A stretch of DNA of 64,000 nucleotides from Dasania marina DSM 21967. GTDB lineage: Bacteria; Pseudomonadota; Gammaproteobacteria; Pseudomonadales; Dasaniaceae. A model generated the notes under the pieces. It made no database searches, was not told where the DNA came from, and saw nothing but the letters and a program-made list of their open reading frames with translations. Shown piece by piece: positions 26,782 through 39,913 of the stretch (the first letter of the stretch is position 1; each line of letters starts with the position of its first letter). The position numbers and the translations under genes were made by a program. The stretch covers positions 157,698 to 221,697 of the forward strand of contig NZ_KB891585.1 in assembly GCF_000373485.1 (NCBI RefSeq), given 5' to 3'.

Positions 26782-27282
26782 ATGAACACCAAAAAACTCT
26801 TTTTTATACAAACGCTTTTCACTGAGCAACAGTCTGGCCTGCGTCGTTTTATTGCGTCTAAAGCAGTGGTTGCTCATGAGGCCGAAGATATAGCTCAAGA
26901 TGCGTTTCATAATATGCTGAAAATGGAGCGGCCGGAGCAGTTGGAAAACCCGAAGGCCTATTTATATCAAATAGCGGCGAATTTGGCGCTTAATAGAATA
27001 CGCAAGCAGGGTCGACAAATGCGTTATGAGGATAGTTTAAAGGCAGATTTGGATACTATTATAACAGCCAACGACCCAGACCAAATTGTTAATGGTCATG
27101 AGCAGCTATCGCAGCTAATGATGGCGCTGCAAGTGTTACCAGATAAAGTTAAAACTGCGTTTTTATTAAGTCGAGCAGAGGATAAAAGTTACAGTGAAAT
27201 TGCTGATGAAATGGGAGTGTCAGTCAGTTCGGTTGAAAAGTATTTGATGACGGCATTGAAGCACCTACGTAAGTCTGCTTGA
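26782..27282 (+). CDS. ECF RNA polymerase sigma factor, FecI type
   Basis: 166 residues with sigma-70 region 2 (FIASKAVVAHEAEDIAQDAF, about residues 25-45, and PKAYLYQIAANLALNRIRK) and region 4 (AFLLSRAEDKSYSEIADEMG, then VSVSSVEKYLMTALKHLR). FecI-type sigma factors are activated from the outer membrane through FecR and a TonB receptor with an STN domain; both follow immediately (27377, 28456). It therefore most likely drives transcription of the receptor and the genes behind it. Confidence 0.92.
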   Translation: MNTKKLFFIQTLFTEQQSGLRRFIASKAVVAHEAEDIAQDAFHNMLKMERPEQLENPKAYLYQIAANLALNRIRKQGRQMRYEDSLKADLDTIITANDPDQIVNGHEQLSQLMMALQVLPDKVKTAFLLSRAEDKSYSEIADEMGVSVSSVEKYLMTALKHLRKSA

Positions 27283-27376
27283 GGAATGGTATAATTATTT
27301 GAGGGTTTTACCCTTAGCGGTGTTTAATTAATGAAACCACGAATTAAATTAGAATTATCTAGTAAAAGTAACAGCC

Positions 27377-28387
27377 ATGACTAATAAAGACCCCAAAAAT
27401 GATCACGAAGAGGCGGCTATGAAGTGGTTATTGCGTTTGCAATCACCTGAGCTTCCTGAACTTGAGGAAAAGCAGTTTTTCACATGGCTTAAAAGTTGTG
27501 CTGAGCATCAGCAAGCCTATGTTAATGCTGAAGCTTATTGGGATGGTCTAGCAGGTTTACAATCTAGTGAAGTAGCTAATGGCATTATTGCCGACGTTGC
27601 TGCAAATGATGCTGATAAACGGCAGAGCTGGGGTATGTGGGCTATTGCTGCATCCGTTGTATTGTTCGCTGGTTTATTTTTATTGCAACTTGGAATCGAC
27701 TCGAGCCAGCATACGTATCGGAGTGCGGTGGGGGAACAGCGACAAATTAGCCTTGCAGATGGCTCCACTGTTATTCTCAATACGGAGTCGCAACTGCGTG
27801 TCGAAAAAATGGAATCGTCGGCTACCCGGGTAGTGCATCTTGATTTTGGTGAGGCCCTATTTGATATTAAACCAGATAGTCATCGCCCTTTCATTGTTAC
27901 CACAGAGCGTGGTTCGGTACGTGTGCTTGGGACTCGGTTTACAGTTCTTTCGGAAGAAGATACTACCTTGATAACGGTGCTGGAGGGTAAGGTCGCGCTG
28001 GCAGATAGAACGGTTGATGAATTATCCCAGCAAGATTATAAGCCCCAGGCTACATTAGTTACCGATCAACAGTTATCGATAGCTCAGGCAATAAAGGGTG
28101 AGCGGCCTCGACAGGTTGACGCTAAATCTTTGGCTACCTGGGAGGGCGGGCGACAGGTTTATAATGGCGTTCCACTGGGTGTGGTCGTTAAAGATTTAAG
28201 TCGCTATTTTGATGGCGATATCAAACTTCGTGAAGAAGCTTTAAAAAGCAAGCGGGTTGTTGCCGTTATTGATCTGCAGGATAAAGCTTCAGCCATAGCC
28301 ACCCTTGAGGCAGTATTTAACATAGTAGCCGTTAACCACTCAGATCAATTAACGGTATTACAGAGTAAAAATAATAATAAGTTGTAA
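27377..28387 (+). CDS. FecR-family sigma regulator (anti-sigma/transducer)
   Basis: A 336-residue inner-membrane protein. The N-terminal cytosolic DUF4880-like domain contains AMKWLLRLQSPELPELEEKQ; one membrane helix spans about residues 92-110. The periplasmic FecR domain has YRSAVGEQRQISLADGSTV, LNTESQLRV, FIVTTERGSVRVLGTRFTV and a C-terminal STN-like module. FecR holds and activates its sigma factor when the outer-membrane receptor signals. It sits between the sigma factor gene and the STN receptor gene, as in fec-type systems. Confidence 0.92.
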   Translation: MTNKDPKNDHEEAAMKWLLRLQSPELPELEEKQFFTWLKSCAEHQQAYVNAEAYWDGLAGLQSSEVANGIIADVAANDADKRQSWGMWAIAASVVLFAGLFLLQLGIDSSQHTYRSAVGEQRQISLADGSTVILNTESQLRVEKMESSATRVVHLDFGEALFDIKPDSHRPFIVTTERGSVRVLGTRFTVLSEEDTTLITVLEGKVALADRTVDELSQQDYKPQATLVTDQQLSIAQAIKGERPRQVDAKSLATWEGGRQVYNGVPLGVVVKDLSRYFDGDIKLREEALKSKRVVAVIDLQDKASAIATLEAVFNIVAVNHSDQLTVLQSKNNNKL

Positions 28388-38159: not shown

Positions 38160-38422
38160 GTGTAGACAATTGATATAAAGCTACTTACCAGTATTTTAGC
38201 TTTGATGCGATAGCGCTATGTGAATGGAGGTATTTGGTCATAACGTTGAATGATTAGGATTTGAATCGCTCGCATGGTTTGACCTGAACAAATTCTGCTT
38301 ATTCAAAAAGGCTGATCACAACAAGATCAAATATTATAGATCGGATATAAAGAATAGGATCTTTTAAAAAAAGGACAATCATAACTCCAAACAACACTAT
38401 TTTTCATTACAGGAGCCTCAAA

Positions 38423-39913
38423 ATGCCCGCCAAAACTATTTCACACCACCTACAATTGGCGCTACTTGCTATCTCATGTTCCGCAAATAGCCAAACATCA
38501 ATACCAAGTACTGATGCATTGACAATTTCCCAGGCCCTAAATTTAATAAAAAGCAAAAACCTAAGTAGCCAAATCCTCGTTGAGCAAGCGCTACATGAAG
38601 CTGATAAAAATACTAACCTCAATGCCTTTATTACCCTTAACAGAGAAAATGCGATTGAGCAATCCATTTATTATGACAGTAACCCATCAGTCGGTAACAA
38701 TATGACGTTAAGAGGTATGCCTATTGCTGTTAAAGACAACATTCACGTAAAGGGCATGCCAAATACCGCAGGCACTCTTGGGCTAAAAGAATTCTACCCG
38801 GAAGAGGACGCCGAGGTGATTCGCCGCCTTAAAGTAGCAGGGGCCATTATTATTGGTAAAACGAATATGCATGAATTGGCTTACGGAATTACTAGTAATA
38901 ACTATGTATTTGGCGCAGTCGCAAACGCGTATAACGCTCAATATTTTGCTGGCGGTAGTAGTGGCGGTACCGCCACTGCAGTGGCGGTAGGAATGGCTAT
39001 CGCAGGGCTTGGAACAGACACTGGGGGTAGCAGCCGGATACCTGCAGCCCTTAATGGAATAGTTGGCTTTAGACCTACAACCGGTCGATACCCAAGCGAA
39101 GGACTCACGAGTATTTCAAATACACGAGACACTGTTGGGCCAATGGCTCATTCAGTCTCTGATATTATATTATTAGATCGTGTTTTGAGCCAAACAACAG
39201 CCAAAGGTAAAGTTATAAATCTATCCGACGTAAAGATTGGTATTCCCAGGGAGTACTTTTATCAAGATTTAGAGCCCGATGTAGCCAAAGCGACTAACAA
39301 GCTTCTCTCAAAGCTAGCGCAGGCTGGGGTTACTCTTGTGGAAGCGAACATCGGCAATATGGCCGAGCTCAATGAAAACATAGGCTTCCCGATAGTTATT
39401 TATGAAACATATCAGTTGCTAACCGCCTACCTAAAACAGCATACACCCGATAAAACCATTCACGATCTATACAACGAAGTTGTAAGCCCTGATGTGAAAT
39501 CTATCCTGTCTTTAGCTATTGATGGCGCAGTCACTAAGGAGATGTACTTAGAGGCCCTGCACACCCACAGAGAAGCATTAAGGACAAGCTATAAAAATTA
39601 TTTTCAGCAACACGAAGTAGACGTCATATTATTTCCAACGACCCCCCTTTCAGCACGCCCGATCAAAGACAGCCTCGAAACGGTTAGTTTAAATGGAAAG
39701 CTTGTAAACACCTTCCAAACCTATATTCGCAACACTGAGCCATCTAGCAATGCAGACCTACCCAGCCTCAGTATCCCTTTAACACTCGCCTCAAATGGGC
39801 TACCTATTGCAATAGCTATCGATGGCCCAGAAGGCGATGATACGCATCTGTTAGATATTGGGAAAAGTATAGAGGAATTTATTTCCAAGCTTCGCCAGAC
39901 AGGCGAGATTTAA
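38423..39913 (+). CDS. Exported amidase-signature enzyme
   Basis: 496 residues with the Ser-cisSer-Lys catalytic set: Lys in GMPIAVKDNIHVKG, cis-Ser in GTDTGGSSRIPAALNG and nucleophile Ser in FAGGSSGGTATAVAVG. The N-terminus (LQLALLAISCSANSQ) looks like a signal peptide and possibly a weak lipobox, so a periplasmic enzyme is likely, unlike cytosolic GatA. Amidase-signature enzymes hydrolyse amides such as indoleacetamide, mandelamide, fatty-acid amides or peptide amides. AGGAG precedes the ATG. It lies 263 bp after the symporter and probably closes the scavenging locus. Confidence 0.85.
   Translation: MPAKTISHHLQLALLAISCSANSQTSIPSTDALTISQALNLIKSKNLSSQILVEQALHEADKNTNLNAFITLNRENAIEQSIYYDSNPSVGNNMTLRGMPIAVKDNIHVKGMPNTAGTLGLKEFYPEEDAEVIRRLKVAGAIIIGKTNMHELAYGITSNNYVFGAVANAYNAQYFAGGSSGGTATAVAVGMAIAGLGTDTGGSSRIPAALNGIVGFRPTTGRYPSEGLTSISNTRDTVGPMAHSVSDIILLDRVLSQTTAKGKVINLSDVKIGIPREYFYQDLEPDVAKATNKLLSKLAQAGVTLVEANIGNMAELNENIGFPIVIYETYQLLTAYLKQHTPDKTIHDLYNEVVSPDVKSILSLAIDGAVTKEMYLEALHTHREALRTSYKNYFQQHEVDVILFPTTPLSARPIKDSLETVSLNGKLVNTFQTYIRNTEPSSNADLPSLSIPLTLASNGLPIAIAIDGPEGDDTHLLDIGKSIEEFISKLRQTGEI

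Follow-up and report, generated by a model that had tools for sequence, protein, structure and literature searches.

A penicillin G acylase locus of Dasania marina as a candidate TonB-dependent scavenging system for arylacetyl amides

Gene content of the locus

The window analysed here, a stretch of 64,000 nucleotides from Dasania marina DSM 21967, harbors at positions 26782-39913 of the plus strand eight intact, collinear open reading frames (ORFs). All named domains of the eight proteins exceed the Pfam cut-offs. The description in an earlier note on this DNA, namely, eight consecutive genes on one strand, stands with its positions unchanged. The first three genes encode an extracytoplasmic function (ECF), FecI-type sigma factor (26782..27282; Pfam Sigma70_r2 and r4_2), a FecR-type anti-sigma/sigma regulator (27377..28387; FecR and DUF4880) and a TonB-dependent receptor with an STN signalling domain (receptor 1, 28402..30960; STN, Plug and barrel), for which the ATG at 28456 is a more likely start than the listed 28402. 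Each of the three has a homologue in the Halieaceae MAG BB37 (locus L034), with 40% identity for the sigma factor, which occupies the same place in the gene order, and 45% for receptor 1. A second TonB-dependent receptor (receptor 2, 31119..33425; Pfam plug and barrel), 33% identical to receptor 1, belongs to an orthologue group whose members, where testable, adjoin genes for penicillin G acylase (PGA). The window PGA itself, a predicted lipoprotein with the nucleophile Ser294, is encoded at 33519..36065, downstream of a terminator-like hairpin (33441..33458, plus strand) that was detected by a consensus scan only.

The remaining three genes encode a DUF485 membrane protein, the partner of the symporter (36188..36511; Pfam DUF485; 35% identity to E. 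coli YjcH), an ActP-like sodium:solute symporter with phenylacetate as the probable substrate (36504..38159; Pfam SSF; 56% identity to E. coli ActP), and an exported amidase-signature enzyme of the indoleacetamide-hydrolase type (38423..39913; Pfam Amidase). The DUF485 ORF is listed from a TTG at 36167, with the ATG at 36188 as the likely start; the symporter ORF, listed from 36447, probably begins at the ATG at 36504 and then overlaps the DUF485 stop at 36511. The intergenic gaps in the locus span 94, 14, 158, 93, about 100, and 263 nt and, together with the hairpin, could divide transcription of the predicted unit. The Pfam scan detected no iron gene within the stretch, in agreement with the earlier note.

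Several other genes in the window merit mention. A NorB-type nitric oxide reductase that includes a cytochrome c-like domain is encoded on the minus strand beside the locus (41443-43704), and a few kilobases downstream, a second ECF-type sigma factor adjoins a gene for an HD-domain protein (45311-45985). Two short ORFs (46470-47060 and 47487-47972) match NDH-2 and glutamate synthase only over the C-terminal portions of these proteins and look like gene remnants. Consecutive genes at 48496-54013 encode Radical SAM/DUF3641, VTT-fused disulphide oxidoreductase, DUF547, and DUF2064 proteins, whereas those at 11611-20109 encode a carboxyltransferase, a biotin carboxylase, methylmalonyl-CoA mutase, and MeaB, the propionyl-CoA route.

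Identity of the acylase

The acylase matches the Pfam Penicil_amidase family with 391 bits, and the solved structures closest to it are PGAs, namely, 7reo (E 7e-166), 1cp9, and 1gk9, with PvdQ not among the best matches. The numbering and roles of PGA residues are well established. In the alignment with PGA structures, Ser294 coincides with SerB1, the Ntn nucleophile, as the earlier note had proposed, and the complete PGA catalytic set is retained (SerB1, GlnB23, AlaB69, AsnB241, and ArgB263). The aromatic acyl pocket is likewise conserved (ArgA145, PheB24, PheB57, TrpB154, and IleB177), as are ProB22 and SerB67 at pocket columns. Four pocket positions are substituted, MetA142 (M142I), PheA146 (F146Y), V56L, and F71L, and these changes could shift the acyl-group preference of the window PGA; F146Y is also found in the PGAs of Variovorax and Herbaspirillum that are linked to phenylacetate degradation (paa) genes. 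In the other Ntn acylases of this order, the Ntn core is retained but the aromatic pocket of PGA is missing. Judged by these sequence features, the window protein is a true member of the PGA subfamily, with hydrolysis of phenylacetyl amides as its predicted activity. In the PGA tree, it falls within a 13-row clade (100/100) together with proteins from Halieaceae, Thiotrichales, and Porticoccaceae, apart from the PGA of its congener (G100).

The N-terminus of the window acylase contains a lipobox-like motif, GLFSAC, and most of the acylases and amidases encoded in the related marine loci likewise have a lipobox; inspection of the N-termini of enterobacterial and Providencia PGAs revealed no clear lipobox. 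The earlier label of a surface-type acylase thus holds as far as a lipoprotein is predicted, with the surface location depending on that same prediction.

Genomic neighbourhoods and co-occurrence

We compared the neighbourhoods of PGA genes in the best 80 loci from a GTDB scan together with six from genomes of the order; these loci are not independent samples. Core paa genes are present in the fetched flanks of 28 of 85 PGA loci, receptor 2 in 26 of 85, and the amidase in 19 of 85 (in each case, with the GTDB part limited to the best 80). In marine gammaproteobacteria, a receptor 2-PGA-amidase unit recurs, to which DUF485/SSF genes are added in some genomes. In Luminiphilus/Halieaceae, the unit is embedded in the phenylacetate operon, for example, in L039 in the order paaX-paaK-receptor-PGA-amidase-paaZ-paaG-paaI-paaJ-paaA-paaC, with NCBIfam equivalog models over cut-off, and in Glaciecola (L100), the order is paaK-DUF485-SSF-receptor-PGA-amidase. 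PGA also lies inside paa clusters in Collimonas, Herbaspirillum, and Variovorax; no paa genes were found in the fetched flanks of the PGA loci of Achromobacter, Pandoraea, and Providencia. A TTQ amine dehydrogenase is encoded near PGA in five loci, four of which also include a StyD-like aldehyde dehydrogenase. Considering the PGA pocket along with these paa and aralkylamine dehydrogenase neighbours in other genomes, a phenylacetyl or some other arylacetyl residue is the most likely acyl group, and the substrates put forward in the earlier note (acyl-homoserine lactones (AHL), lipopeptides, and acyl amino acids in general) are not supported. The search for receptor-acylase-ActP-amidase sets that the note had called for revealed conserved neighbourhoods in many genomes; the Glaciecola locus contains all four elements. 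The grouping of these genes and its logic, that is, a receptor, extracytoplasmic cleavage, and import of the carboxylate, are supported by the conserved neighbourhoods and by a natural fusion of acylase and amidase.

The link to phenylacetate catabolism extends to whole genomes. All seven genomes of the order that encode PGA also encode paaA, compared to 41 of the 295 genomes of the order with paaA over cut-off (hypergeometric p about 6e-7, relatedness being ignored). Non-PGA acylases in paa-bearing genomes (G044, G095, G171, G204, G225, and G280) are not located near paaA, as judged by coordinates for those with listed positions. The genome of D. marina contains one PGA and a complete paa set elsewhere, in which paaK is divergent from paaZ...paaX on contig C2; the PGA locus does not adjoin paa genes in this genome. 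Contig C18 (L152:3015-9919) encodes a TonB receptor (29% identical to receptor 2), a StyD-like aldehyde dehydrogenase, and the large and small subunits of a TTQ aralkylamine dehydrogenase.

Receptor 2 appears to be dedicated to this context. Its orthologues occur in 5 of the 295 genomes of the order, in every case beside PGA, and the class sample yielded four more, three of which adjoin PGA while the fourth is cut by a contig end. Across loci of Glaciecola, Woeseia, G003, and G048, receptor 2 is 58-65% identical in sequence although the accompanying PGAs are only 34-36% identical; the greater conservation of the receptor suggests that the ligand was conserved while the acylase was exchanged.

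The partner amidase and the symporter

The window amidase scores 576.7 bits against the indoleacetamide hydrolase model NF005688, above the cut-off of 532, and contains the Lys/Ser/Ser motifs of the amidase signature at residues 103, 177, and 198 on. The paa linkage suggests phenylacetamide equally with indole-3-acetamide as its predicted substrate. In L034 (9890-13864), PGA and an indoleacetamide-hydrolase-like amidase form one open frame of 1325 amino acids, on one MAG contig. In two further loci (L035:12509-14035 and L036:12509-14035), a divergent second amidase-like protein, about 25% identical, is encoded directly 3' of PGA and is followed by an acyl-CoA-ligase-like gene.

The DUF485/SSF symporter may carry phenylacetate. 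The closest relatives of the window symporter adjoin PGA and paaK, and the Glaciecola copy, located between paaK and receptor 2, is 72% identical to it. The other reading of this gene, that it encodes an acetate transporter like ActP that is present here by chance, appears unlikely to us. The symporter passes the broad ActP subfamily model PRK09395, the name of which is acetate symporter, its best annotated plasmid matches are ActP or 'cation acetate symporter', and no other close ActP copy was found in the genome; yet, the score against the ActP equivalog TIGR02711 is 713 bits compared to a cut-off of 1099, and the synteny of the nearest relatives speaks against chance.

Regulation

The adjacent ECF sigma factor, FecR with one transmembrane segment (read from the sequence), and STN receptor make up the arrangement characteristic of surface signalling, and the scores of this FecIR-receptor module are far below those of the ferric-citrate equivalogs. 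We infer that FecIR drives the acylase, symporter, and amidase genes. In E. coli, the PaaX site is TGATTC(N27)GAATCA (PMC9493321). A scan for TGATTC(N26-28)GAATCA, with at most one mismatch, detected PaaX-type sites ahead of the PGA genes of Kluyvera, Buttiauxella, Lelliottia, and Citrobacter, as well as in the paaZ-paaK gap of both the window genome and its congener. In the congener, such a site also precedes the receptor-PGA-symporter set, the flank of which contains no FecIR, at a distance of about 70 bp from receptor 2, whereas the same scan found none in the window. Thus, in the window genome, the PGA genes seem to have escaped from regulation by PaaX and now stand next to a FecIR module.

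The combination of FecIR and receptor 1 with PGA was found in just one genome besides that of D. marina, and close orthologues of receptor 1 were not found in 368 other genomes of the class (E up to 1e-120). The earlier grouping of FecIR with the acylase accordingly survives in part: the linkage recurs, but only in one divergent relative, L034. This rarity leaves some room for two adjacent but separate modules, in which FecIR and receptor 1 would respond to an unrelated ligand, for example, iron, and receptor 2, PGA, the symporter, and the amidase would serve phenylacetyl amides from their own promoters. The congener's set without FecIR in its flank fits such a division, and the 158-nt gap and the hairpin permit separate transcription. 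Nevertheless, L034 repeats the window order sigma-FecR-receptor 1-receptor 2-PGA at 32-54% identity, and the stretch is devoid of iron genes, so that we regard two independent modules as quite improbable.

A predicted route for arylacetyl amides

Taken together, the observations make it probable that the locus is a TonB-dependent scavenging system for arylacetyl, most likely phenylacetyl, amides. The protein families, the PGA pocket, the neighbourhoods, the co-occurrence, and the presence of paa genes are read from the sequence; from these, we infer the ligand, the control of the enzymes by FecIR, and the symporter substrate. In the proposed scheme, receptor 2 would transport the amide across the outer membrane, and receptor 1, by its STN domain, would detect this ligand or one related to it and, via FecR, signal to the ECF sigma factor. 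The lipoprotein PGA, in the periplasm or at the outer membrane, would cleave N-phenylacetyl conjugates to yield phenylacetate, whereas primary or other arylacetamides would be the source of phenylacetate for the indoleacetamide-hydrolase-like amidase. Phenylacetate would then be moved inward by the DUF485/SSF symporter and degraded by PaaK and the paa catabolon, the genes for which lie elsewhere in the genome. Bacteria are known to form phenylacetamide as a metabolite (PMC12787655), and marine bacteria produce N-phenethyl amides (PMC6669561); given their occurrence in bacteria, these compounds are candidates, but only candidates, for the amide used. A literature search for phenylacetylglutamine in association with diatoms yielded nothing useful.

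A more speculative variant, which we consider possible but doubtful, is that the system senses phenylacetyl-amide signals or auxin-type conjugates at the surface, possibly amides with aralkylamines such as N-phenethyl phenylacetamide, with FecIR replacing PaaX as the switch. Both halves of the molecule would then be food, phenylacetate via paa and phenethylamine via the TTQ aralkylamine dehydrogenase. If this is the case, PGA gains a defined class of natural substrates and a dedicated outer-membrane receptor.

Two further explanations fare considerably worse. An AHL or lipopeptide acylase system for quorum quenching or signal scavenging, in which the receptors import AHLs, the acylase frees the fatty acid, and the symporter takes it up, is very improbable: acylases of the superfamily can hydrolyze AHLs (PMC5474475) and the window acylase does match PvdQ weakly, but the score of 47 bits against an equivalog cut-off of 950, the PGA-type pocket that sets it apart from the other acylases of the order, the paa genes adjoining PGA in relatives, and the arylacetamide type of the amidase all argue against it. 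Hardly credible is penicillin catabolism or resistance, with import of benzylpenicillin by the receptors, removal of its phenylacetyl side chain by PGA, and degradation of the side chain by paa, for although PGA is named after this reaction and penicillin-eating strains possess paa together with a beta-lactamase and an amidase (Crofts 2018, cited in PMC11446756), our non-exhaustive scans detected no beta-lactamase among the scanned window proteins or annotated recurrent neighbours, and the conserved association with paa and amine dehydrogenase genes indicates ordinary catabolism instead.

PGA is a major industrial enzyme, the natural role of which has long been debated. A receptor found only with PGA, a partner amidase that was fused to it once, and a location in paa operons make this disputed role directly and cheaply testable. 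As a substance class within dissolved organic matter, phenylacetyl amides may also enter marine bacteria through TonB receptors.

Comparison with known systems

That PGA serves, under PaaX, to scavenge phenylacetyl compounds is an established idea for E. coli W (PMC9493321, PMC2265553). The dedicated receptor, the lipoprotein acylase-amidase pair, and the proposed FecIR control were not found in the literature searched; an incomplete literature search for a link between PGA and a TonB receptor likewise found no relevant paper. The PGA of E. coli W and Kluyvera belongs to the same enzyme subfamily as the window PGA, with the same catalytic residues, and is presumed to supply the paa pathway by scavenging esters and amides of phenylacetate (Galan 2004 and Merino 1992, cited in PMC9493321 and PMC2265553). 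In contrast to the window, the enterobacterial loci examined lack an adjoining TonB receptor, amidase, and symporter of the window kind as well as FecIR, and their PGAs have no clear lipobox.

In the phenylacetyl-CoA catabolon of Pseudomonas putida, with the phenylacetate permease PaaL (PMC3224230), uptake of phenylacetate similarly feeds PaaK and the epoxidase route. The PaaL system, however, takes up the acid itself, whereas the window locus is proposed to import conjugates and hydrolyze them first, the tie of its symporter to phenylacetate being the paaK synteny in Glaciecola (L100) only. The window acylase shares the Ntn-hydrolase superfamily (Pfam Penicil_amidase) with PvdQ-type AHL acylases but differs from them in scoring far under the PvdQ cut-off and in possessing the aromatic pocket of PGA. 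Finally, as in FecI-FecR-FecA signalling, an ECF sigma factor, FecR, and an STN receptor are encoded in a row, but their neighbours in the window are hydrolases and an organic-acid symporter rather than iron genes.
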